Shown piece by piece: positions 2,356 to 16,253 of a stretch of DNA of 16,253 nt (positions within the stretch are counted from its first letter, which is position 1; the number at the start of each line of letters is the position of its first letter). This DNA is from Clostridia bacterium (GTDB taxonomy: Bacteria; Bacillota; Clostridia; UBA1381), in assembly GCA_017521775.1 (NCBI GenBank), contig JAFXBO010000018.1, forward strand, positions 1-16,253, given 5' to 3'. The notes under the pieces are model-generated. The model saw nothing but the letters and a program-made list of their open reading frames with translations. It did not search any database and was not told the DNA's origin. Made by a program: the position numbers and the translations under genes.

Positions 2356-3648
2356 CACACAGCTTATTTTATCAATACCATAAAATTTAAATAATTCTGC
2401 TTTTTTCTCGGTAATCAATTCGCCACTCACAGCAATCGGAACTGCAGGAGGACAGGAAACGGTTGGAGAGGCACAGATTCGGCCGATTGCTCGCTCAGTT
2501 TTAACAAGCTCCTGTTTTGATAAAAGCGCCTTTCTTATTGATACAGCTTTTTCACCTTTTTCTATTCTGGGTGAATTTATCGGTTCATAATTTTCGCAAG
2601 AGGATATAAGTTTTTTGATTAAGTCAAAATCCTTTTTTGTATTTTGGGGTGTGAACATAAAGACTATAAATTCATCGTCCGAATATTCACATTCTCCACC
2701 AAGCTCTCTTAACCTTTCTGCCATTTTGTTTCCGTTTGTGTGAATTGTTATTTTTAATGGCTCACATCCGTACAGTTCAAAATTTTTGCTCTTTATATAT
2801 TCCTTTAACTCATTAACACTATGAAAAGTTGATTGAATTAACTCATCATAGTTTGATGTCAAAGTCTTGTTGCATAAATCAAGTGAACAAAGCGTCAGAT
2901 ATGACGGACTGGTTGAAGCAAAAAATGACATTGCATCCTTAATACAAGGGGAATATATCTTGTTGTATTCCTTTGAAATATGAAGATATGCACCACCCGT
3001 TAAAACAGGCAGGGTTTTGTGAGCAGAGTCGCAACACATAGCTGCACCCAAATTAATCGGATGCATATCAAAAAATTTCAGATATGCTCCATGAGCATTA
3101 TCAACAAGTAATGGGGTATCATATTTTTTGCATATCCTTGCAATTTCTTTGATATCACTCATTTGTCCAATATAGTTTGGCGAGGTTATATAAAGAGCAA
3201 ATGGCTCATATTCTTTTAAAACCCTTTCAGCTTCATCTGCAGTGATTGAACCACTGCAAAGTGAATTTGAATTTTTGGGATATATCCAGCACACATCTAA
3301 ATCAAGTGCTGCCACAGTATAGACAAATGATTTATGTACATTTCTTGCAGCAGCAATCAATGGCTTTTTACTGGTGTTTATTAAAGCAGCATATATCATT
3401 GCACGAATACAAAGCGATGAGCCTTCAGTTGAATAGAAGGTATCACCTGTATCAAATATTTTAGAAGCATTTTTTTCGCTCTCTCGTATAATTCCGTCTG
3501 CTTCATACAGGCTGTCAGCACCATAAATTTCGGTTATGTCCATAGACTCACAACCTAAATATTCTACGCCTTTGTGACCTGGCATATGAAATCTTGATAT
3601 GTCGCTGTCGGAATATTTTTTTACAAAATCAAATATTGGAGTTTTCAT
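2338..3648 (-). CDS. PLP-dependent Orn/Lys/Arg decarboxylase family protein
   Basis: About 436 aa of the fold-type I decarboxylase family (Orn/Lys/Arg decarboxylase major domain, Gram-positive SpeA/YaaO type). Visible marks are FHMPGHKG near residues 20-27, the cofactor-contacting Asp in LLVDNAHGAY (Asp183) and the Schiff-base lysine in DSAHKTLPVLTGGA (Lys211). Members decarboxylate arginine, lysine or ornithine to polyamine precursors; the substrate cannot be read from this sequence. At about 436 aa it is somewhat shorter than SpeA (about 490 aa), with a compact C-terminal domain. The start is uncertain. TTG at 3660, ATG at 3654 and ATG at 3648 are all in frame with no clear Shine-Dalgarno. 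I prefer 3648 (MKTPIFDF), which resembles family starts. Every choice overlaps the end of the upstream maturase gene, which suggests translational coupling. The product could instead act on another amino acid. Confidence 0.85.
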   Translation of the reverse strand: MKTPIFDFVKKYSDSDISRFHMPGHKGVEYLGCESMDITEIYGADSLYEADGIIRESEKNASKIFDTGDTFYSTEGSSLCIRAMIYAALINTSKKPLIAAARNVHKSFVYTVAALDLDVCWIYPKNSNSLCSGSITADEAERVLKEYEPFALYITSPNYIGQMSDIKEIARICKKYDTPLLVDNAHGAYLKFFDMHPINLGAAMCCDSAHKTLPVLTGGAYLHISKEYNKIYSPCIKDAMSFFASTSPSYLTLCSLDLCNKTLTSNYDELIQSTFHSVNELKEYIKSKNFELYGCEPLKITIHTNGNKMAERLRELGGECEYSDDEFIVFMFTPQNTKKDFDLIKKLISSCENYEPINSPRIEKGEKAVSIRKALLSKQELVKTERAIGRICASPTVSCPPAVPIAVSGELITEKKAELFKFYGIDKISCVKTDKN

Positions 3649-5002
3649 CTTCATAAGCAATCTGCATCATTATTGCACATTCAATTCTCTTTTTAAAAAG
3701 TTCACAGCCATATTCATAAATCCCTGAAACACTGCCTGTTGCGTGATATGAATTTGCAGCGCAGCCACCTGCACAGTATAGCTTTGCCCAGCAATCTCTG
3801 CAATCAGGTCTTGAGTATGCATTGCATTTTTTGAATTCATTTTGAACTTCGGTGTTTGTTACACCATTATATATATCGCCTAATTTATACTTCTCATCGC
3901 CGACAAACTGGTGGCAAGGATATAAATCTCCCCATGGGGTGACAGCCATATATTCAGTTCCTGAGCCACAGCCCGATACTCGCTTATATATACAAGGTCC
4001 GTTTTTTAAATCTATCATATAATGATAGAATGTAAATCCGTTCCCGTTTTTCTTTCTTTTAATCATTTCTTTTGCAAGAATTTCATATTGCTCAAACAAA
4101 ACAGGTAAATCTTCGTCAGTAAGTGCTGACGGGTCTTTTGGCGAGCATACAACAGGCTCCATACTTAATTCGGTAAAACCTAAATCTGCCATATGGAAAA
4201 TATCATTTGTAAAGTCGGTGTTATGGTGGGTAAATGTTCCTCTCATATAATAGCTTTTATCCCCACGCCTTTTTACAAACTCCTGAAATTTTGGAACAAT
4301 TGTATCGTAGCTTCCTTTGCCCTCATAATTCACTCTGAATTTATCGTGAACTTCTTTTCTTCCGTCAAGACTAAGAACAACATTGTCCATTTCCTTGTTG
4401 CAAAAATCAATCACATCATCATCAATTAGAACACCATTGGTTGTAAGTGTAAATCTGAAATTTTTGTTGTGTTCTTTTTCAATGCTTCTGGCATATTTAA
4501 CAAGGTCCTTAACAACCTGCCAGTTCATTAGTGGCTCGCCACCAAAAAAATCGACCTCAAGATTGTGTCTTGTTCCTGAGTTTTCAATAAGGAAATCCAA
4601 GGCCCTTTTTCCTGTTTCAAAGCTCATTAGCGCTCTGTCGCCCTGATATTTTCCCTGACTTGCAAAGCAATATGAACAATTAAGATTACAGGTGTGAGCA
4701 ATATGTAAGCACAGAGCTTTTATAACACAACTGTTTTTATTTAGCTTTGGTGTTAATTCTTCATAATTATCTTTGGTAAAGAGCTTGTTTTGTCTTTCAA
4801 GAGTTTTTACATCCTCAATGCACTCTTCTACCTCATCTCTATTGACATCATATCTTTTTGTGATATCCAGAATGATTTCGTCTTCTGATTTATTTTTAAA
4901 GCTTTCGATTATATCATAAGCAACCTCGTCAACCATATGAACAGAGCCGCTTGCAGTATCAAGAACTATGTTATATCCGTTAAGCTTATATTGATGAACC
5001 AT
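3629..5002 (-). CDS. SCIFF peptide maturase (radical SAM/SPASM)
   Basis: A 457-aa radical SAM enzyme of the thioether-forming SCIFF maturase family (CteB/Tte1186 type). An N-terminal RiPP-recognition-like region (residues 1-80) precedes the SAM-cluster motif CNLNCSYC (Cys105, Cys109, Cys112), the radical-SAM barrel and a cysteine-rich SPASM region with GCGSG, PCHQF, CRDC and YCAGGC motifs that should bind auxiliary [4Fe-4S] clusters. It would install a Cys-to-backbone or side-chain thioether in the SCIFF peptide encoded just upstream. The start at 5002 is set by GGAGG (5008-5012) with 5-nt spacing; an upstream GTG at 5014 overlaps that site. Its 3' end overlaps the decarboxylase gene. A terminator lies between it and the precursor gene, so it is probably expressed by partial readthrough. 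Confidence 0.95.
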   Translation of the reverse strand: MVHQYKLNGYNIVLDTASGSVHMVDEVAYDIIESFKNKSEDEIILDITKRYDVNRDEVEECIEDVKTLERQNKLFTKDNYEELTPKLNKNSCVIKALCLHIAHTCNLNCSYCFASQGKYQGDRALMSFETGKRALDFLIENSGTRHNLEVDFFGGEPLMNWQVVKDLVKYARSIEKEHNKNFRFTLTTNGVLIDDDVIDFCNKEMDNVVLSLDGRKEVHDKFRVNYEGKGSYDTIVPKFQEFVKRRGDKSYYMRGTFTHHNTDFTNDIFHMADLGFTELSMEPVVCSPKDPSALTDEDLPVLFEQYEILAKEMIKRKKNGNGFTFYHYMIDLKNGPCIYKRVSGCGSGTEYMAVTPWGDLYPCHQFVGDEKYKLGDIYNGVTNTEVQNEFKKCNAYSRPDCRDCWAKLYCAGGCAANSYHATGSVSGIYEYGCELFKKRIECAIMMQIAYEDENSNI

Positions 5003-5020
5003 AATAACCTCCACACTGTA

Positions 5021-5050: not shown

Positions 5051-5197
5051 TTATTTGTTTTCGTTTTCGCACTGTTGGTTTATAGCGCCACAAGATGTTT
5101 TGCAAGCTGACTGGCAAGATGTCTGACATTCGCCACAGCCGCCGTTTTTAGCACTCTTGCAAAGGTCACGAGTTTCAATTGTTTTAATTCTATTCAT
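5051..5197 (-). CDS. SCIFF ranthipeptide precursor
   Basis: A 48-aa peptide with the SCIFF signature (six cysteines in forty-five residues). The core reads CGECQTSCQSACKTSC (residues 21-36), followed by a last Cys in the QQCE context at residue 43. Seven cysteines are present (13, 21, 24, 28, 32, 36, 43); Cys13, in the leader-like part, is additional to the usual six. In the characterised homologues CteA and Tte1186a, Cys32 is joined to Thr37 by a thioether (recalled). Here the equivalent Cys32 is kept but residue 37 is Gly. The start at 5197 has GGAG at 5206-5209 with 8-nt spacing. SCIFF peptides are near-universal in Clostridia; a role in signalling has been proposed, but function is not settled. 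The gene is preceded by a perfect-consensus promoter and followed by a terminator and the maturase gene. Confidence 0.95.
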   Translation of the reverse strand: MNRIKTIETRDLCKSAKNGGCGECQTSCQSACKTSCGAINQQCENENK

Positions 5198-5238
5198 TAA
5201 AAACACTCCATTTCATATTTATATTTAAAATCATACAG

Positions 5239-7223: not shown

Positions 7224-8708
7224 ATGGGAAAAACATATAAGTTTTTAGCATTTGACTTTGGTGCATCAAGTGGAAGAGCAATGCTTGCCACATTTGACGG
7301 AGAGAAAATTAAATTAGAAGAAAAGCACCGTTTTGCAAACGACCCTGTAACAATGAATGGCGGATTTTATTGGGATGTTATGAGATTGTTCCACGAAATC
7401 AAGCAGGGAATCTTGGCTTGTGCAAATTCAGGGGACAGGGATATTGATTGTATTGGTATTGATACATGGGGAGTTGACTATGGCTTGCTTGATAAGAACG
7501 ACAAGCTTCTTTCAAACCCATATCACTACAGAGATACAAGAACAGACGGAATGTATGATGAAGCATTTAAGAGAGTTCCAAAAGAAGAAATTTTTAATTC
7601 AACAGGTATAGCTTTTAACTGGTTTAATACACTTTTCCAGATGCTTTCAGCAAAGCTTTCAGGAGATGTTGCATTGGAAAATGCAAAAACACTTTTGTTT
7701 ATGCCTGATTTATTGAATTTCCTTTTGACAGGTGAAAAGAGATGTGAATACACAATCGCATCAACATCTCAAATGTTTGATTCAAGAACACATACCTGGG
7801 CAACAGACCTACTAAAAAAGCTTGATTTGCCTACAGATATATTTGCTAAAATGGTATATCCTGGTGAACAGGTTGGTGTGTTACTACCTGAAATCGCAGA
7901 GGAATTAGGAGTTTCTCAAATTCCTGTAATTGCAGTTGCATCTCACGATACTGGCTCAGCTGTTGCATCTGTTCCTGTAGTTGATAATGAAGATTTTATC
8001 TATATATCAAGTGGAACCTGGTCTTTGATGGGTGTTGAGTTGAAAGAGCCTAATGTAACTAAAGATGCTTTAAAATATAATTTCACAAATGAGGGTGGAG
8101 TCAACAAGACCATAAGATTTTTGAAAAACATTATGGGCTTATGGTTAATTCAGGAGTCAAAAAGACAATGGAAGAGAGAGGGAGAAGAGCTTACATTTGA
8201 TGAGCTTGAGCAACAGGCAAATGCAGCAAAACCATTTGAAAGCTTTATCGACCCTGATTATCCTGCATTCCAGACACCTGGTAATATGCCAAGAAGAATA
8301 AGAGAATATTGTGAAAAAACAGGACAAAAAGTTCCTGAAACTAAGGGTGAAGTAATAAGATGTATTGCTCAGAGCTTGGCATTTAAATACCGTCAGACAG
8401 TTGAAGGTATGGAGGATGTAACAGGCAATAAGTATTCTGTTGTCAACATTGTTGGTGGTGGAATTAAGGATAAAATGATTTGTCAGTTTACTGCCAATGC
8501 AACAAAGAGAACTGTTTTAGCAGGTCCTGTTGAGGCTACAAGTATCGGTAACGTTATTGTTCAGGGAATTGGTGTCGGAGCAATAAAAGATATAGAAGAG
8601 GGCAGAAAAATTGTCAGAAAATCTTTTGACATTGCAACATATGAACCACAAAACTCAGATGAGTGGGATAAGGCATATGAAGCATGGAAGAAGATTGTGC
8701 TTGGTTAA
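7224..8708 (+). CDS. rhaB: L-rhamnulokinase (FGGY carbohydrate kinase)
   Basis: A 494-aa FGGY-family kinase. The N-terminal DFGASSGR phosphate motif (residues 11-18), GIDTWGVDYG (about 78-87), HDTGSAVASVP with the probable catalytic Asp, SSGTWSLMG and a C-terminal NIVGGGIKDK with GPVEATSIGN together match rhamnulokinase more closely than xylulokinase or glycerol kinase. The expected reaction is ATP-dependent phosphorylation of L-rhamnulose to L-rhamnulose 1-phosphate in rhamnose catabolism. The RBS AAGGAG (7208-7213) overlaps the mscL stop region. No rhaA, rhaD, rhaM or rhamnose regulator is present in the window, so either the rest of the pathway is elsewhere or the kinase acts on a related ketose. 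Confidence 0.9.
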   Translation: MGKTYKFLAFDFGASSGRAMLATFDGEKIKLEEKHRFANDPVTMNGGFYWDVMRLFHEIKQGILACANSGDRDIDCIGIDTWGVDYGLLDKNDKLLSNPYHYRDTRTDGMYDEAFKRVPKEEIFNSTGIAFNWFNTLFQMLSAKLSGDVALENAKTLLFMPDLLNFLLTGEKRCEYTIASTSQMFDSRTHTWATDLLKKLDLPTDIFAKMVYPGEQVGVLLPEIAEELGVSQIPVIAVASHDTGSAVASVPVVDNEDFIYISSGTWSLMGVELKEPNVTKDALKYNFTNEGGVNKTIRFLKNIMGLWLIQESKRQWKREGEELTFDELEQQANAAKPFESFIDPDYPAFQTPGNMPRRIREYCEKTGQKVPETKGEVIRCIAQSLAFKYRQTVEGMEDVTGNKYSVVNIVGGGIKDKMICQFTANATKRTVLAGPVEATSIGNVIVQGIGVGAIKDIEEGRKIVRKSFDIATYEPQNSDEWDKAYEAWKKIVLG

Positions 8709-8709
8709 A

Positions 8710-9699
8710 ATGAAGAGATTAATATGCTTTGTGCTTATATTTATGATGTCATATGTATCTTGTTTTGCACAGGATATCGATATCAAAGCATATAAAGAAA
8801 AGGACACCAATAAACTCATAGAACTAAAGATAAATGAGCCGGACCAGATGGCTGTTGCTGTTATATATACATCCGATAACAGAATTTATAATTCTCAGAT
8901 AGTAAATATAAAGGATAAAAAAGCAGAGCTTAGGCTAATGTGTCCTGACACTGAATTTGTTTTAAAGCTATATACTGATTTAGGGACAGATAAATCATAT
9001 TCTGTTCCATCTGACAAAATCGAATATTATGAAAAAGAATTTGTCCCTGTATATGGAAATACTGCCGCAGCAATTGGTGCTTTTGCAGTTGTCAAGGATG
9101 TTTGCGAGGAATTAAATGTATCAAATGAGGCAGTTGCATCATTGACAGTTCTATATAGAGGTGAAGAATGCAAGGTTGAGTTCGACATTGATTATTTGCT
9201 TTCTTATCAGGAAAGTGAGGAAAGCATTTCAGTTCTTGACCTTGAGGCAGGGGATATCATAAGGCTTAAAGCAACTCTTTCAGGAAAGCTTGTTGGTGCA
9301 GAGTTTATTTTTAAAGCACCAAAAACTGATGTGGTTTTGGATGAAGAGGAAGCATCAAGACTATATACAACAATAACTGATAAAAAGAATATGAATGTAT
9401 TCGGAGTTGTTGCAGATGTTTATGATGACACTCTTGTGTTATATAACCAAGGTGGGCTTGAGCGTGATGCATTGTATCTTGATATTGATCCAAATACAGT
9501 CGTGTATGGTTTTGATGCAAGCTTAAGAAAGGATAATGTGAAGATATTATCGGCTAAAAAAATTCCGAAGTCTGAGATATTTTCAAAGGATGAGGATGAT
9601 AACATAACAAACTGGGAGGAAAAAAGAGACAGAGTGTATGCATATGTAAGAGTATATGATGGCATTGTGTGTGATGTTATGTTATATGAAAATTATTAA
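8710..9699 (+). CDS. Secreted protein of unknown function
   Basis: A 329-aa protein that I do not recognise. It starts with a short basic end and hydrophobic stretch (MKRLICFVLIFMMSYVSC, residues 1-18) and a probable signal peptidase I site after CFA (residue 20). The Cys at 18 is not in a good lipobox. The mature part looks beta-rich and acidic. The last 110 residues (FGVVADVYDDTLVLYN, later YVRVYDGIVCDVMLYE) resemble beta domains that I recall from SLH-linked envelope proteins of Clostridia, a weak comparison. The start at 8710 lies 1 nt after the rhaB stop and has only a weak Shine-Dalgarno within rhaB, which suggests coupled translation. Longer in-frame starts (8611 onward) overlap rhaB and would bury the signal peptide. 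It is the last gene before the terminator. Confidence 0.8.
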   Translation: MKRLICFVLIFMMSYVSCFAQDIDIKAYKEKDTNKLIELKINEPDQMAVAVIYTSDNRIYNSQIVNIKDKKAELRLMCPDTEFVLKLYTDLGTDKSYSVPSDKIEYYEKEFVPVYGNTAAAIGAFAVVKDVCEELNVSNEAVASLTVLYRGEECKVEFDIDYLLSYQESEESISVLDLEAGDIIRLKATLSGKLVGAEFIFKAPKTDVVLDEEEASRLYTTITDKKNMNVFGVVADVYDDTLVLYNQGGLERDALYLDIDPNTVVYGFDASLRKDNVKILSAKKIPKSEIFSKDEDDNITNWEEKRDRVYAYVRVYDGIVCDVMLYENY

Positions 9700-10047: not shown

Positions 10048-11352
10048 TTAATCTTTAAATGCGTCACCTGTTGCAGGATTATCAATCAGCTTTCCATTCT
10101 CGTCAAATCGGGAGCCGTGGCAAGGACAATCCCAGGAATGTTCAGCCTTATTCCATTTAAGAGCGCAACCTAAATGAGGGCATCTTTTTGTAGTTGGTGA
10201 CATAAAGTTCGTGAGAGTTTCAAAGCAGTTGGAGGCAAGCTGAGGTTTTAAGATGTTTCTTGAGGGAGAAAAAATATCGGAATATTCATTTTCTTTTCCC
10301 ATAACCATATCGCATAAAATTTTTGCAGCCACCATCGAAGAGGTAATGCCCCATTTATTAAAGCCTGTTGCAACATATAAATCAGGAGTTGTTTTAGAAT
10401 ATTGACCGATATATGGAATACTGTCAAGGCTCATACAGTCCTGAGTTGCCCATTGATAAGAGATTTTGGCATCAGGATAATGTTTCTTTTGAAAATTTAT
10501 TAATTCATTAAAAGAACCACCATTTTTTCCTGTTCTGTGACCTCCTCCTCCAAGGAGAAGATAATCTTCATAATTTCTGAATGATAATCCCTTGTCATTC
10601 TCATCAACATACATTCCATCAAAATTTTGAGCGTTTTTTAGTGCAATAACATATGAACGATGCTGATATAGCTTTAAAAAGTAACTGCCGTGTTTATTTA
10701 TAAAAGGGAAATGAGTTGTAACAATTATTTTTTTCGCGTTAATTTCTCCACTGTCAAATATAGCCTTGTCTGGCGTAATGTCGCGAATAAAGGTGTCTTC
10801 ATAAATGTTTAAGTCCTTTGAAATCTGATCAATAAATTTAAGTGGATTAAACTGTGCCTGCTTTTCAAGACGAACTGCACCTGAGGTTTTAAATGGCAGT
10901 TCAATATTTTCACAAAAATCTGCCACACCACCTATTGAGTTAATTGCCCTGACTTCGTTTTCAATTTTTTCTCTGTCCGAAATTGAGTAGGTATATGCAC
11001 TTTTTTCTTCAAAATCACAGTCAATGTTTTCGCATAGCTTAAAATAATCTCTTACTGCATCTTCATTAGCCCTTAGATATTTTTGTGCAAGCTCTTTATT
11101 AAAGCTTTTAATGAGCTTATCATAAACAAGTCCGTGTAAAGCCGTGATTTTTGCAGTTGTGTTTTTGGTTATACCTGAGGCAATTTTATTCCCCTCAACG
11201 AGAATATAATCTATCCCTGCTTTTTCTAAAAAGTATGCACAAAGAATGCCTGAAAGCCCTCCGCCAATAATCAAAACATCAGTTTTATTGTTTCCATTGA
11301 GTTTATCAAAGCTTGGCAATTCCACTTCTTCTGACCATACAGATTTCGTCAT
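10048..11352 (-). CDS. FAD-dependent oxidoreductase with C-terminal Rieske domain
   Basis: A 434-aa fusion. Residues 25-55 form a Rossmann FAD-binding unit (DVLIIGGGLSG, ending in a ribose-binding Glu53), followed by a DadA-like (DAO family) amine/amino-acid oxidase body. The C-terminal 45 residues are a Rieske [2Fe-2S] domain with CPHLGC (Cys391, His393) and CPCHGS (Cys409, His412) as cluster ligands. Cys396 and Cys411 are positioned for the stabilising disulfide seen in high-potential Rieske proteins. The arrangement resembles Bacillus YhfW, whose substrate I do not know. The start at 11352 has GGGGAGG (11361-11367) with 8-nt spacing. No signal peptide or membrane helix is visible, so it is probably cytosolic. 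spoIIID follows 60 nt downstream on the same strand. Confidence 0.93.
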   Translation of the reverse strand: MTKSVWSEEVELPSFDKLNGNNKTDVLIIGGGLSGILCAYFLEKAGIDYILVEGNKIASGITKNTTAKITALHGLVYDKLIKSFNKELAQKYLRANEDAVRDYFKLCENIDCDFEEKSAYTYSISDREKIENEVRAINSIGGVADFCENIELPFKTSGAVRLEKQAQFNPLKFIDQISKDLNIYEDTFIRDITPDKAIFDSGEINAKKIIVTTHFPFINKHGSYFLKLYQHRSYVIALKNAQNFDGMYVDENDKGLSFRNYEDYLLLGGGGHRTGKNGGSFNELINFQKKHYPDAKISYQWATQDCMSLDSIPYIGQYSKTTPDLYVATGFNKWGITSSMVAAKILCDMVMGKENEYSDIFSPSRNILKPQLASNCFETLTNFMSPTTKRCPHLGCALKWNKAEHSWDCPCHGSRFDENGKLIDNPATGDAFKD

Positions 11353-11439: not shown

Positions 11440-11468
11440 TTGACTTTTTGTTTTTTCTGTGTTACACT
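11440..11468 (+). promoter_or_regulatory. Sigma-A promoter of the cobalamin-riboswitch operon
   Basis: TTGACT (11440-11445) and TACACT (11463-11468) are separated by 17 bp, about 20 bp before the start of the riboswitch aptamer. The upstream DNA to 11353 is AT-rich and holds the RBS and presumably the promoter of the divergent FAD/Rieske gene, for which I see no clear hexamers. Confidence 0.7.
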
Positions 11469-11491
11469 AAAAAAAATTAAATAAATTCACA

Positions 11492-11674
11492 CAAAGTGTT
11501 GACTATTCTGTTTGGGGATAGTTGGTGAAAAGGGAATGAGGTGCGAATCCTCTGCGATTACAGTCGCTGTATGTATCCGATGTTTTTTGTCCGTCGGTGA
11601 AAGCCGGTCATTGGGAAACTGAGAAGGCAGGGCAGGAAAATGCTAATAGGATACGAGTCAGAAGACCTGCTTTG
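11492..11674 (+). ncRNA. Cobalamin (B12) riboswitch aptamer
   Basis: The conserved cobalamin-riboswitch elements occur in order: a GGTGAAAAGGGAAT-type box (11524-11537), a hairpin GAGG/CCTC followed by GCGATTACAGTCGC (11538-11568), an internal GCCGGTCATTGGGAAACTG segment with GAAGGC (11593-11628), and the 3' signature GAGTCAGAAGACCTGC (11655-11670). CAAAG (11492-11496) can pair with CTTTG (11670-11674) as a closing helix. The outer boundaries are approximate. Family members bind adenosyl- or hydroxo/methylcobalamin and usually switch off B12 synthesis or uptake genes when B12 is abundant. It precedes the DUF4430/ECF genes. Confidence 0.95.
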
Positions 11675-11675
11675 A

Positions 11676-11710
11676 TGTTATACCGTAAGTGCTTATGCAT
11701 AGGTGTAACA
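11676..11710 (+). other. Hairpin just downstream of the B12 aptamer
   Basis: TGTTATACC (11676-11684) pairs with GGTGTAACA (11702-11710) as a 9-bp stem with one G-U pair and a 17-nt loop. Its place right after the aptamer fits the regulatory hairpin (P13) whose loop forms the kissing interaction in cobalamin riboswitches. That assignment is inference. Confidence 0.4.
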
Positions 11711-11720
11711 GTTTCAGCTT

Positions 11721-11741
11721 GACTCTTTTCAGAGTCTTTTT
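11721..11741 (+). terminator. First terminator-like hairpin in the B12 leader
   Basis: GACTCT (11721-11726) and AGAGTC (11731-11736) form a 6-bp stem with a TTTC loop followed by five T. It is short and possibly weak. The distal hairpin at 11770-11793 is the stronger terminator candidate. Confidence 0.5.
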
Positions 11742-11768
11742 GGGGTGTGAAATTCACAGGAAAACTCT

Positions 11769-11809
11769 GCTGTGGTAATGAAAATTGCCGCAGTTTTTTT
11801 GTTTTTTTT
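11769..11809 (+). terminator. Main terminator of the B12 riboswitch platform
   Basis: CTGTGGTAAT (11770-11779) and ATTGCCGCAG (11784-11793) form a continuous 10-bp stem with two G-U pairs and a GAAA tetraloop, followed by seven T, a G and eight T. It ends 25 nt before the start codon of the downstream gene, so termination here would shut off the whole operon. TTCACAG (11753-11759) can compete for its left arm. Confidence 0.88.
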
Positions 11810-11834
11810 GCGGCACAAAATGGAGGGATTACAA

Positions 11835-13904
11835 ATGAAAACAAAAAGAATTTTATCACTATTTATTATCATCTCTATGATGATGAGCTTATGCGGTTTT
11901 TCTGTACAAGGTGAGGAAAATCCGCAGATTTCAATAATTCACAACATTGCCGAAAAGTACACCACTGAGGCAATATTAAGTGATGAAAACATTTATTGGT
12001 TTTTAGCAGACCTTGCGGAATATGCCAAGCTATATCCTGATAGTGAGCATATTATGAGTGAGGAGCTAAAGCAAGCTGCTCTTGACAAAGTTATTGAATT
12101 TGCTGACAATGCAACAGCACCGGGAGATTTGGCAAAAGCAATTATTGCAATGCGTTCTCTTGGCTATGATGCAAGAAAAGTAACAACAAAAGAGTTGCAG
12201 GAAATTGATGTTGTTGCAAAGCTTACAGCGCTTGTAGATGCACAATCAACAGATGTGACAAATCCTTACACACTTTCATATGTAATAATTGCTTTGCAGC
12301 AGGGAGCAGAATATGCAACTGAAACACAAATGAACTGGCTTTTAGAACAGGCAATTACAACAAAAGATGCATGGCAGGATACAATGTGGGGACCTGACGG
12401 TGCAGCTCCGATGGTGTTGGCACTTCGTCCTTATTACGATACAAATGATGATATTAAAACACTTGTAGATGAAACCATTGATATTATTAAAAATTGTCAG
12501 ACTGACACAGGAATGATGACAGACAGCGTTTGTTCTACAGGAGTTTCAATGATGGCTCTTGGGGCGATGGGAATTGACTGTGAAACGATTGTGAAAAACG
12601 AAAAAAGCCTTATTGACGGAATGATGACATATGCAACCCAAGGTCTTGATGGATTTAATCAGTGGGGTTATTCATTCGATACAGAACAGGGCTTCAGGGG
12701 TCTTCTTGCATGGCAGTTATCAAAAAAAGGTGAAGTGATTTTTGATTTCTCCTCATATCCGATGAATGAGGCAAAGGCAACAGCTGATTTGCCGGAACTT
12801 CCAACAGAACCTACACCAGAGCCAACACCTGGTTATCCGTCTAACGAAACAACTGAAACAATATCAATTAAAATTAAAGTTATGATGCATAATGAAGAAG
12901 AGTGTAACAATTCTTATACATACAAAAACAATTCCGATGAGTACACTGCGCTTGTTAATCAGACAGTTATTGCAGAAATAGGAACAAGTGTATATGATGT
13001 TTTGGTTGAAGCCCTTACACTAAGCAGAATTAATTATGTTGAGGGAAGCAGAGGATATATAGTCTCAATTGACGGAGTGGATGAATTTGAACACGGAGAC
13101 AAATCAGGCTGGATGTTTATGGTAAATGGAGAGCATATAAATACAGGTAGTGGTTCAACATTGCTTACTGAAGATTCAACAGTCACATGGTTTTACACTG
13201 ATAATTACGAAAAGGAAAAGGGTTCTGAAAGCTTTTCCACTTCGCTTGGCGGTAAGCCGACAGTAGTAGTGAAAAAAGAAGAAGAGGAAGAAGTTAAAGA
13301 AGAGGAAAAGAACGAAGAAGAAATTGTAAAGCCTGAAAAGATAGAATTTACTGAAAACACTTATTCGGATGTCAAAAAGGATGATTGGCATTATGAAGCA
13401 GTAAAATATGCGTTTGAAAACAATCTTATGCAAGGAACAGAAAACGGATTTGAGCCTGATGAAAAAATGACAAGAGCAATGCTTGTGACTGTTCTTTATA
13501 GACTTGAAAGCCCTGTCGAGAAATCTCAGTTTTCTGATTTTTTAGACATCGAAGAAGGTGCATGGTATGAAGACAGCGTTTTATGGGCGGCAGAAAAGAA
13601 AATTGTGACAGGTGTGAGTGATACCGAATTTGCACCGAATCAAGAACTTAGCCGTGAGCAGATGGCAGTTATTCTTTATCGTTATGCAAAATCAATAGGG
13701 ATTAACACAGAGAATACCTCAAATCTTAATGAATATAAAGACCAGGAAGAAATCAGCGATTGGGCGCTTGATGCATTTGTCTGGGCAAATTCTGTTAACT
13801 TGATAAATGGTATTGGAGAAAATGAACTGTCGCCGAAAGCAAGTGCAACAAGAGCGCAGATTGCAACAATTCTGATGCGATTTTGTGAGATGATTTCCAA
13901 ATAA
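11835..13904 (+). CDS. SLH-anchored transcobalamin-like surface protein
   Basis: A 689-aa modular surface protein. Residues 1-26 are a signal peptide without a proper lipobox. Residues about 30-310 are helical repeats resembling the prenyltransferase/terpenoid-cyclase alpha/alpha toroid (GPDGAAPMVLAL, STGVSMMALGAMG, QWGYSFDTEQGFRGLLAW). A Pro/Thr linker (319-335) leads to a DUF4430/transcobalamin-C-like beta domain (about 341-457, with SGWMFMVNGEH and STVTWFYT). An acidic Glu/Lys linker (478-505) precedes three SLH repeats (about 507-555, 566-618, 634-684; TRAM, SREQ and TRAQ motifs) that should bind secondary cell-wall polymer. The toroid plus beta domain is the layout of intrinsic factor and transcobalamin, which clamp B12 between the two. 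The start at 11835 has GGAGGG (11822-11827) 7 nt upstream. The B12 riboswitch and ECF genes support a cobamide receptor role, which is inferred. Confidence 0.88.
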   Translation: MKTKRILSLFIIISMMMSLCGFSVQGEENPQISIIHNIAEKYTTEAILSDENIYWFLADLAEYAKLYPDSEHIMSEELKQAALDKVIEFADNATAPGDLAKAIIAMRSLGYDARKVTTKELQEIDVVAKLTALVDAQSTDVTNPYTLSYVIIALQQGAEYATETQMNWLLEQAITTKDAWQDTMWGPDGAAPMVLALRPYYDTNDDIKTLVDETIDIIKNCQTDTGMMTDSVCSTGVSMMALGAMGIDCETIVKNEKSLIDGMMTYATQGLDGFNQWGYSFDTEQGFRGLLAWQLSKKGEVIFDFSSYPMNEAKATADLPELPTEPTPEPTPGYPSNETTETISIKIKVMMHNEEECNNSYTYKNNSDEYTALVNQTVIAEIGTSVYDVLVEALTLSRINYVEGSRGYIVSIDGVDEFEHGDKSGWMFMVNGEHINTGSGSTLLTEDSTVTWFYTDNYEKEKGSESFSTSLGGKPTVVVKKEEEEEVKEEEKNEEEIVKPEKIEFTENTYSDVKKDDWHYEAVKYAFENNLMQGTENGFEPDEKMTRAMLVTVLYRLESPVEKSQFSDFLDIEEGAWYEDSVLWAAEKKIVTGVSDTEFAPNQELSREQMAVILYRYAKSIGINTENTSNLNEYKDQEEISDWALDAFVWANSVNLINGIGENELSPKASATRAQIATILMRFCEMISK

Positions 13905-13921
13905 AAAGGACAAAAGGTATT

Positions 13922-14620
13922 ATGAAGAATAGAACAAAAATTATTGTAGGAATTATAATTGCAATTTCTCTTATAGCCGCATTTTTTGCGAATAGCGAAG
14001 TGCCTCAAAATCAAAGTTTTGATGAGGTGCAGATTGAAGAAACTGTAAAAGAACCTGAATTGATAACAGAAGACATTGAAGAACCGTCAAAAGAAACTCC
14101 TGCTCTTGAACAAAAAGAGCAGGAGAAACCAAAGAAAACGGAAGAAGCAGCGAAACAAAAAGAGGCAGAGCCTGTTATTGAAGAAATATTAGAGCCTGAG
14201 AAAAAAGACGAATTAACTTGCACAATGTCGGTAAGATGTGATACAATTATTAAGAATATTGCATTGCTTGATGTGGAAAAAAGAGAGTTGCTGCCGCCAA
14301 ATGGTGTAATTTATCCTGAACAAACGAGAGTACTTTTTGAGGGTGAAAGCGTATTTGACCTTTTATTGAGGGAAACTAAGAAAAATAATATACATATGGA
14401 ATTTGTAAAAACACCTGTTTATAATTCGGCGTATGTTGAGGGAATTGGTAATTTTTATGAATTTGATTGTGGCGACCTTTCTGGTTGGATGTGCAAAGTT
14501 AACGGACAATTTTTAAAATGCGGTCCCTCAGATTATATTTTAAAGGATAAAGACAAAGTTGAATGGGTTTATACCTGTGACCTTGGTAAAGATGTGGGAG
14601 AACAATATGCAAAAGAATGA
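13922..14620 (+). CDS. Membrane-anchored DUF4430 protein
   Basis: A 232-aa protein with an N-terminal uncleaved-looking membrane helix (IIVGIIIAISLIAAFFA, residues 7-23), a long charged Glu/Lys/Pro stalk (about 30-96) and a single DUF4430/transcobalamin-C-like domain (about 98-220) containing GESVFDLLL, GDLSGWMCKVNGQ and DKVEWVYTCD. The domain is related to that of the preceding gene; SGWM, VNG and the closing W-Y-T strand are shared. It carries six cysteines (100, 106, 183, 191, 200, 219) where its partner's domain has one, so disulfides or another stabilising role are possible. It begins 17 nt after the preceding stop, and its end overlaps the T-component gene by 14 nt. I infer an envelope-facing protein that accepts ligand from the SLH receptor and presents it to the ECF importer. 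Confidence 0.85.
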   Translation: MKNRTKIIVGIIIAISLIAAFFANSEVPQNQSFDEVQIEETVKEPELITEDIEEPSKETPALEQKEQEKPKKTEEAAKQKEAEPVIEEILEPEKKDELTCTMSVRCDTIIKNIALLDVEKRELLPPNGVIYPEQTRVLFEGESVFDLLLRETKKNNIHMEFVKTPVYNSAYVEGIGNFYEFDCGDLSGWMCKVNGQFLKCGPSDYILKDKDKVEWVYTCDLGKDVGEQYAKE

Positions 14621-15485
14621 ATTTAAAACATATCATCCTGTAGTAAATTTTATATATTTTGTATTGATAATCGGATTTTCGTGCGTGTTTATGCATCCGA
14701 TTAGTTTGTGTATATCTTTGTTTTCTGCACTTATTTATTCGTCAGTATTAAAGGTGAATTTGAGAATAAAGTACATTCTGCCTATGTTTATAGGCATGGC
14801 AATTTTAAATCCTATTTTTAGCCATGGGGGCGTAACAATACTTTCGTATCTTCCAAGCGGAAATCCTCTGACATTGGAAGCAATAATATATGGAATAGCA
14901 GCATCTGCTATGCTCATAAGTATTATCTGCTGGTTTTTCTGCTATAACGAAGTGATGACAAGTGATAAATTTATTTATCTTTTTGGAAGAGTTATTCCGT
15001 CGCTGTCGTTGGTTTTATCAATGACATTAAGGTTTGTGCCGAGATTTATAGAACAGATGAAAAAAATTTCCCAAGCTCAAAAAGCTATTGGAAAAGGTGT
15101 AGGCGAGGGGAATTATATAAATCGTATAAAAAATGGTATATCAGTTATTTCCGTAATGATTACATGGTCATTTGAAAATGCGATTGACACAGCAGACAGT
15201 ATGAAATCCCGTGGTTATGGAACAAAGGGAAGAACATCCTTTTCGATATTTAAATTTGATAAGCGCGACATAAAAGCTTTGACTGTAATCGTAATTTTAG
15301 GATTATATATCATAGTCGGAGGAATTTTTGACGGAATGTATGTTAAGTATTTTCCATCAATCAGATATGATATATCAGTTTATTCATTAAGTGTTTTTTT
15401 AGCATATCTTATATTTTGTCTTATACCATTGATAATTGAAATGTGGGAGGTAATCAAGTGGAAATATATAATATCAAAAATTTGA
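14607..15485 (+). CDS. ECF transporter T-component (CbiQ/EcfT family)
   Basis: A 292-aa integral membrane protein with about five to six hydrophobic helices and the two cytoplasmic coupling regions of energy-coupling-factor T-components: QAQKAIGKG (156-164) and ADSMKSRGYG (197-206), the latter holding the xRG motif that docks on the ATPases. T-components join the ATPase pair to a substrate-specific S-component. The start at 14607 is set by GGGAG (14596-14600) 6 nt upstream; it overlaps the preceding gene by 14 nt, so translation is coupled. CbiQ is the name used in cobalt/cobalamin clusters, but the family assignment does not fix the substrate. The riboswitch and DUF4430 neighbours point to a cobamide. 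Confidence 0.93.
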   Translation: MQKNEFKTYHPVVNFIYFVLIIGFSCVFMHPISLCISLFSALIYSSVLKVNLRIKYILPMFIGMAILNPIFSHGGVTILSYLPSGNPLTLEAIIYGIAASAMLISIICWFFCYNEVMTSDKFIYLFGRVIPSLSLVLSMTLRFVPRFIEQMKKISQAQKAIGKGVGEGNYINRIKNGISVISVMITWSFENAIDTADSMKSRGYGTKGRTSFSIFKFDKRDIKALTVIVILGLYIIVGGIFDGMYVKYFPSIRYDISVYSLSVFLAYLIFCLIPLIIEMWEVIKWKYIISKI

Positions 15486-16253
15486 GCTTTACCTATCCAA
15501 ACCAAGATAAAAAAGCTCTTAATGAAATAAATCTCACAGTCAATGAGGGAGAATTTGTATGCATCATGGGAAAATCAGGATGCGGAAAAACAACTCTTTT
15601 AAGGCTTCTAAAAACTGCTTTAGCACCTAATGGGGAGATTTGCGGGAGTATATATTTTATGGGAAATCCCATAAGTGAATGTGATAATTATACCGAGGCA
15701 CAAAAAATTGGTTTTGTGATGCAGAATATTGAAGCACAGCTTGTGACCGATAAGGTGTGGCACGAGCTTAGTTTTGGTTTGGAAAATTTGGGTGTTCCTA
15801 CAGGGAAAATCAGAGCAAGAGTTGCGGAGATGGCATCATTTTTCGGAATTGGAGAATGGTTTTATAAGGATGTTTGCGATTTGTCAGGCGGGCAAAAGCA
15901 AATATTAAATCTTGCATCGATAATGGTTATGCAACCGAGTGTTCTTATATTGGACGAGCCAACAAGCCAGCTTGACCCTATTTCTGCAATGGAATTTTTA
16001 AAAACTCTTGAGAGAATTAACAAGGAGCTTGGCACAACTATTATAATAACCGAGCATAGAACAGAAGAAATTTTTTCAATTTGTGACAGGGTTATTGCTA
16101 TGGATAACGGAATGATTTTAGCTGACGAAAGAAAAGAAAAACTTCCTGATAAATTAAGTGGAACGGAGTTTAATAAATTTCTTCCGACAGGTGCGAGAAT
16201 ATACGAAAAGCTTTCAAATGAAAAAAATTATCCGATAACCGTTCGTGATGCAA
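15458..16253 (+). CDS. ECF transporter ATPase (EcfA/CbiO-like), 3' end outside window
   Basis: An ABC ATPase open at the window edge, with 265 codons present. Landmarks are Walker A GKSGCGKTT (residues 38-46), the Q-loop in VMQN (Gln89), signature LSGGQ (142-146), Walker B VLILDEP (162-168) and the switch His200. It hydrolyses ATP for the ECF importer. The start is a GTG at 15458 with GGGAGG (15445-15450) 7 nt upstream; it overlaps the T-component gene by 28 nt. After one complete nucleotide-binding domain the frame continues into PTGARIYEKL and YPITVRDA, which look like the linker of double-domain ECF ATPases (two NBDs in one chain). I therefore expect a second ATPase domain beyond the window; this is inference. 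Confidence 0.92.
   Translation, partial: MEIYNIKNLSFTYPNQDKKALNEINLTVNEGEFVCIMGKSGCGKTTLLRLLKTALAPNGEICGSIYFMGNPISECDNYTEAQKIGFVMQNIEAQLVTDKVWHELSFGLENLGVPTGKIRARVAEMASFFGIGEWFYKDVCDLSGGQKQILNLASIMVMQPSVLILDEPTSQLDPISAMEFLKTLERINKELGTTIIITEHRTEEIFSICDRVIAMDNGMILADERKEKLPDKLSGTEFNKFLPTGARIYEKLSNEKNYPITVRDA

Follow-up and report, generated by a model that had tools for sequence, protein, structure and literature searches.

Gene content of the locus

The window analysed here is an entire contig (C190, 16,253 bases) from the metagenome-assembled genome of a Clostridia bacterium, which totals 1.16 Mb and is 72% complete. Its plus strand carries, in order, a cobalamin riboswitch, two terminator-like hairpins, a gene for a surface protein that combines an alpha/alpha toroid, a DUF4430 beta domain and S-layer homology (SLH) repeats, a gene for a membrane-tethered DUF4430 protein, and genes for the T-component and an ATPase of an energy-coupling factor (ECF) importer. 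Rfam and Pfam matches, and a structure model for the toroid, bear out the riboswitch, the domains and the four genes that the first-pass annotation, made from the sequence alone, had described. Its description of an overlapping operon holds for the second and third genes (14 bases of overlap) and for the third and fourth (28 bases), but not for the first two, which by their coordinates lie 17 bases apart. The features are as follows.

11477-11688, plus strand: cobalamin riboswitch aptamer, RF00174 (65 bits, E 2.3e-14, gathering cut-off 31.5; aligned over the full model, positions 1-189 of 189)
11721-11741, plus strand: candidate expression platform, a terminator-like hairpin with T run (pattern scan)
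11769-11804, plus strand: second terminator-like hairpin with T run (pattern scan)
11835-13904, plus strand: SLH-anchored toroid and DUF4430 surface protein, 689 residues, intrinsic-factor-like (Pfam, AlphaFold2 model, fold search)
11925-12776, plus strand: alpha/alpha toroid, residues 31-314 (model residues 1-284, mostly at a predicted local distance difference test score, pLDDT, above 90; match to the alpha domain of transcobalamin and intrinsic factor)
12789-12851, plus strand: flexible linker from toroid to beta domain (model residues 289-309, pLDDT below 50)
12855-13202, plus strand: DUF4430 beta domain (model residues 311-426; Pfam core 12981-13199)
13326-13904, plus strand, start set by eye: three SLH repeats, cell-wall anchor (PF00395, 102.2 bits in three stretches)
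13922-14620, plus strand: membrane-anchored beta-domain (DUF4430) protein (Pfam E 5.3e-14, model, fold matches)
14607-15485, plus strand: ECF T-component, a transmembrane coupling protein of the CbiQ family (PF02361, E 2.1e-12)
15458-16252, plus strand: ECF ATPase, the first of two, open at the contig end (PF00005, E 1.4e-27)

Two terminator-like sites were found by pattern scan between the aptamer and the first gene, where 0.2 were expected, and the stretch 11689-11815 folds better than its shuffled versions (z -2.97). The one promoter-like site that the pattern scan gave, at 11440, compares with 1.1 expected and was attributed to chance. No further cobalamin riboswitch or DUF4430 gene was found elsewhere in the 72% complete genome.

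A surface protein with domains like those of animal B12 carriers

The product of the first gene begins with a hydrophobic stretch that by eye resembles a signal peptide, and Pfam places DUF4430 at residues 383-455 (E 6.6e-14); the InterPro name of this family is "transcobalamin-like, C-terminal". The toroid was invisible to Pfam at the sequence level and became clear only in an AlphaFold2 model of the toroid-DUF4430 part, which reached a mean pLDDT of 90.3. In a fold search of the PDB with this model, each of the 15 matches at E<=0.001 was a transcobalamin, intrinsic factor or haptocorrin, at 12-18% identity in the structural alignments. The order of toroid then beta domain, which the first-pass annotation had likened to that of intrinsic factor and transcobalamin, was thus borne out by the predicted structure, in which the toroid is present and which at this threshold matches B12 carriers and nothing else. 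The linker (pLDDT below 50) leaves the relative placement of the two domains unpredicted, with a whole-length root-mean-square deviation near 19 A.

Sequence-based searches of the PDB were less informative: with the toroid-DUF4430 part as the sole query there was no credible match, and a profile of the whole family (A1) was dominated by its SLH part, matching solved SLH domains of S-layer proteins. A toroid-only profile (A2) ranked intrinsic factor first, but at E 0.26, and for that reason it is not used here as proof. Anchoring through SLH repeats is thought to require a protein of the pyruvyltransferase family, and the wall-pyruvylating enzyme family PF04230 was found, as a family-level assignment, in ten of ten genomes, the bacterium's own included.

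The tethered beta-domain protein

The model of the second gene product has an N-terminal helix (residues 3-23), a disordered spacer (28-94) and a folded domain at about 97-220. In fold searches this domain matches intrinsic factor, haptocorrin and transcobalamin, in each case at their beta domain. A profile of the tethered proteins (A3) found only low-complexity noise in the PDB, and one search with the tethered protein returned 4652 relatives at E<=0.001.

In an alignment of 44 tethered beta-domain proteins, cysteines at residues 100, 106 and 219 and a histidine at residue 158 are invariant, and the histidine is a candidate cobalt ligand. PDB 3U7Z (RUMGNA_00854 of Ruminococcus gnavus, deposited as a "putative metal binding protein") ranks beside the transcobalamin beta domain in the fold searches and, by that rank, shares its fold. 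Its identity is only 10-13%, and it may itself be a protein of a B12 system.

The importer and its S-component

The best NCBIfam model for the window ATPase was ECF_ATPase_1 (200 bits, below the cut-off of 315), and the protein shares 48-65% identity with the N-terminal portion of fusion proteins in relatives, where one chain, mostly of 800-900 residues, holds two ATPases followed by a C-terminal S-component (A-A-S; Pfam shown for locus L005). As the contig extends no further than the window, the search for the S-component turned to other contigs. Contig C41 of the same genome starts inside a second ATPase, whose first part is missing, and continues with an S-component of 291 residues; we infer that C41 directly continues the window contig. 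The T-component and both ATPases are therefore present in the genome, the first ATPase in the window and the second on C41, each incomplete.

The best PDB match of this S-component was CbrT of the ECF-CbrT importer (32.7 bits, E 5.5e-7; the next match had E 0.011), and a profile built from 17 S-component domains strengthened it to 60.6 bits (E 1.4e-15), with the next S-components at 19.5 and 15.5 bits. The match spans nearly the full length of the protein. CbrT of Lactobacillus delbrueckii was shown to bind and transport cobalamin and cobinamide (PMC5997447). The S-component that the first-pass annotation hoped to find by extending the contig is accordingly CbrT-like and not one for an unrelated vitamin or metal, although it was located on another contig and not downstream in the window. 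The CbiQ family of the T-component had suggested a metal importer, which was rejected because the S-component resembles CbrT; no metal S-component was among the PDB matches of the protein or its family profile. NCBIfam gave sub-threshold matches to folate and riboflavin S-components, identities judged less likely because the match to CbrT is far stronger. A second ECF cluster in the genome, on contig C33, may be a shared housekeeping module.

The gene content of these hosts is in keeping with a need for corrinoids. The bacterium encodes a short-form, MetH-like B12-dependent methionine synthase (TIGR02082, 479 bits, under the full-length cut-off of 1011), and neither CbiC nor a BtuC-type permease was found in its incomplete (72%) genome. 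Among ten genomes chosen as carriers of the system, the majority of them nearly complete, a protein with a B12-binding domain was present in all ten, CbiC in one, and a FecCD-family permease above cut-off in three, in one of them strongly. Together these genes suggest bacteria that depend on cobamides and would have to import them.

Conservation among relatives and across the phylum

The set of relatives comprised 101 genomes, the bacterium's own and 100 others. The toroid-DUF4430 part was matched in 52 of the 101, the S-component in 51 and the riboswitch in 77, and the usual gene order was an SLH toroid-beta protein, a second SLH toroid protein, the tethered beta domain, the T-component and A-A-S. 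Thirty rows for the first gene were picked by hand from the toroid-DUF4430 matches, excluding those with DUF4430 only and those of the second toroid, and in 24 of them a riboswitch lies on the same strand no more than 8 kb upstream; a rough estimate for such proximity by chance, in genomes near 2 Mb, is well under one in 30. For the six misses no riboswitch was listed on the contig, and several of these genes lie at a contig edge. For the S-component, 26 of 53 rows had a same-strand riboswitch within 12 kb upstream, many contigs here too being short. Seen from the riboswitch side, 40 of 95 head a toroid or S-component gene by these distance limits, and 36 of 95 occur in genomes that have neither.

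In many relatives the neighbour of the tethered beta domain is the second SLH toroid protein, which lacks DUF4430 (for example L005, 11805-13412); it is absent from the window, as it is from L064 and L075. An adenosyltransferase for corrinoids is encoded between the tethered domain and the T-component in L006 (Pfam), homologues of it hold the same position in L079 and L089, and such a gene lies just downstream in L118 and L119. In five genomes (G037, G046, G047, G051 and G053) the T-A-A-S genes are found away from those for the surface proteins, and each group follows a riboswitch of its own.

Across the phylum, this type of S-component was detected at E<=1e-6 in 97 of 299 sampled genomes, the bacterium's own included. 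Forty loci were taken from that list non-randomly: 33 consecutive top rows, leaving out the bacterium's own genome, and seven from further down, where genomes in few contigs were preferred. The open reading frame (ORF) of the S-component was undetectable in L170, hence 39 loci were counted. A same-strand DUF4430 gene lay within 13 kb of the S-component in 27 of the 39, SLH repeats and DUF4430 shared one ORF in 19, a T-component was found in 33 and ATPases in 37. Toroids were counted by the strict "toroid" profile alone, because the "tor2" profile may contain SLH sequence, and amounted to 15 ORFs in 12 of the 39 loci. Six loci have a T gene and no nearby DUF4430 gene (L136, L137, L141, L144, L147 and L172), and six have no nearby T gene (L140, L148, L153, L162, L165 and L173). 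The order of SLH-beta, T, A-A and S was repeated across families.

Rfam detected a cobalamin riboswitch at every one of the 14 phylum loci scanned, each of which had been selected for its DUF4430 genes. Taking the study's Rfam scans together, from which L097, L100 and L101 were left out, it was present in 40 of 57 sources; among the 17 others, seven (L077, L080, L082, L086, L087, L089 and L092) have it just outside the fetched stretch. The next same-strand ORF after the riboswitch encodes an SLH or toroid protein in 36 of the 40 loci, the exceptions being L062, L093, L099 and L166. Two distant relatives have tandem cobalamin riboswitches upstream of the operon (L157, 3553-3831 and 3927-4093; L164, 16039-16226 and 17077-17264), and the nearer of each pair was used for this count.

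Proposed function and alternatives

The riboswitch, the fold and order of the two domains, the beta fold of the second gene product, the presence of a CbrT-like S-component in the genome and the conserved gene order are each supported by computation. We consider it highly probable that, in a gut Clostridia bacterium that depends on cobamides, these genes form an operon for scavenging them, which would combine capture, relay and ECF import. Under corrinoid scarcity the riboswitch would permit transcription of the operon, by way of an expression platform suggested by the two terminator-like hairpins. The wall-seated SLH protein would hold a cobamide between its two domains, in the manner of intrinsic factor and transcobalamin. 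From there the second beta domain, tied to the membrane by a helix and about 67 disordered residues, would take the ligand or guide it to the CbrT-like S-component, for import by the ECF module of T-component and two ATPases. Cobamide binding by both surface proteins is a prediction from their models, and the layout suggests a handover that would start at the S-layer, pass through the tethered domain and end at the importer. In an alternative, split arrangement, the second SLH toroid seen in relatives may pair with the tethered beta domain as a possible two-piece form of intrinsic factor. What the first-pass annotation observed is confirmed as a whole, and its interpretation is supported.

The alternative that survives best is that the importer serves corrinoids while the toroid and DUF4430 proteins do not bind them, being wall, adhesion or glycan-acting toroid proteins in the same regulon. 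The toroid fold occurs in many enzymes too, as the fold search showed, and SLH proteins are abundant in these genomes. The window protein has no match at E<=0.1 to PF01122, the toroid of intrinsic factor, which is why we term it intrinsic-factor-like and not a family member. Yet PF01122 matches 17 of 37 aligned members at E<=0.1, and scored above its cut-off in nine of ten relatives that were picked for their precomputed PF01122 match. The pairing of toroid and beta domain finds only B12 binders at E<=0.001, a surface-protein gene is the one next to the riboswitch at nearly all loci, and the operon encodes a second, tethered beta domain, so that we regard non-binding surface proteins as unlikely.

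It is more improbable still that the ligand is a precursor (cobinamide or a lower-ligand base) or cobalt instead of a finished cobamide. A B12 riboswitch may control any step of supply, and a T-component of the CbiQ family would suit such a ligand. Besides cobalamin, the CbrT of L. delbrueckii also accepts cobinamide (PMC5997447). Against this, the S-component matches CbrT and no metal S-component, and the adenosyltransferase genes in some operons indicate corrinoids. Two-domain binders of the intrinsic-factor kind, moreover, require a corrin that bridges both domains. Uptake of cobinamide alongside cobamides would be a variation of the scavenging operon proposed here.

That the surface genes are unrelated neighbours of an ordinary ECF-CbrT importer under a B12 riboswitch is very improbable: such an importer is already characterised (PMC5997447) and 12 of the 39 phylum loci have no same-strand DUF4430 gene within 13 kb, but the other 27 do, and the order of SLH-beta, T, A-A and S recurs across families too regularly for chance neighbours.

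Other genes in the window

Divergent from the B12 operon, at 10048-11352 on the minus strand, lies a gene for a flavin adenine dinucleotide-dependent oxidoreductase with a C-terminal Rieske domain (Pfam). The gene at 8611-9699 on the plus strand is matched neither by Pfam (E<=0.01) nor by NCBIfam (E<=1e-20), and adjoins a SpoIIID-family gene on the opposite strand. A SCIFF peptide maturase (TIGR03974, 776 bits) is encoded at 3629-5014 on the minus strand, and just upstream of it, at 5051-5206 on the same strand, is a cysteine-rich ORF of 51 codons that by eye is its precursor; the two look like an ordinary thioether-peptide pair.

Comparison with known systems

Gut communities compete for cobamides, and to our knowledge little is established about the means by which B12 is concentrated ahead of import where an outer membrane is lacking. 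If the proposed function is true, Clostridia have an independent answer to B12 capture, with the architecture of human intrinsic factor, controlled by B12 and joined to an importer whose type is known. A function for many DUF4430 proteins would also be suggested, with a bearing on the origin of the animal B12 carriers. The wider proposition, that this is a widespread capture-and-relay route in the absence of an outer membrane and also that the animal carriers share an ancestor with these proteins, possibly of bacterial origin, is offered tentatively, as we lean slightly against its holding in full.

The class of importer is known, while the capture stage and its architecture appear to be undescribed. 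A search of the open-licence PMC literature, with subscription papers and preprints outside its scope, found ECF-CbrT and BtuG and no description of an intrinsic-factor-like capture protein in bacteria. BtuG is a beta-propeller, unrelated in fold to the proteins described here. B12 is caught in Bacteroides by this surface lipoprotein, which makes the system alike in that surface-exposed capture of corrinoids feeds an importer in gut bacteria, and unlike in that it works through BtuG and the outer-membrane transporter BtuB (PMC6143338).

ECF-CbrT of L. delbrueckii (PDB 6FNP) shares a homologous S-component (60.6 bits) and an ECF module with the operon, and the excerpted report describes CbrT as using a shared ECF module and mentions no surface binder (PMC5997447). 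The operon has instead its own dedicated T-component and ATPases, with A-A-S in one chain in many relatives, and is joined with surface binders.

Closest in architecture are the animal carriers intrinsic factor, transcobalamin and haptocorrin, which likewise place an alpha/alpha toroid before a beta domain, are the best structural matches over both domains, and have a toroid profile, PF01122, that is found in relatives of the window protein, which itself falls under its detection. The animal proteins are recognised by an endocytic receptor, whereas the window protein is bacterial, fixed to the wall by SLH repeats and encoded in an operon with its importer.

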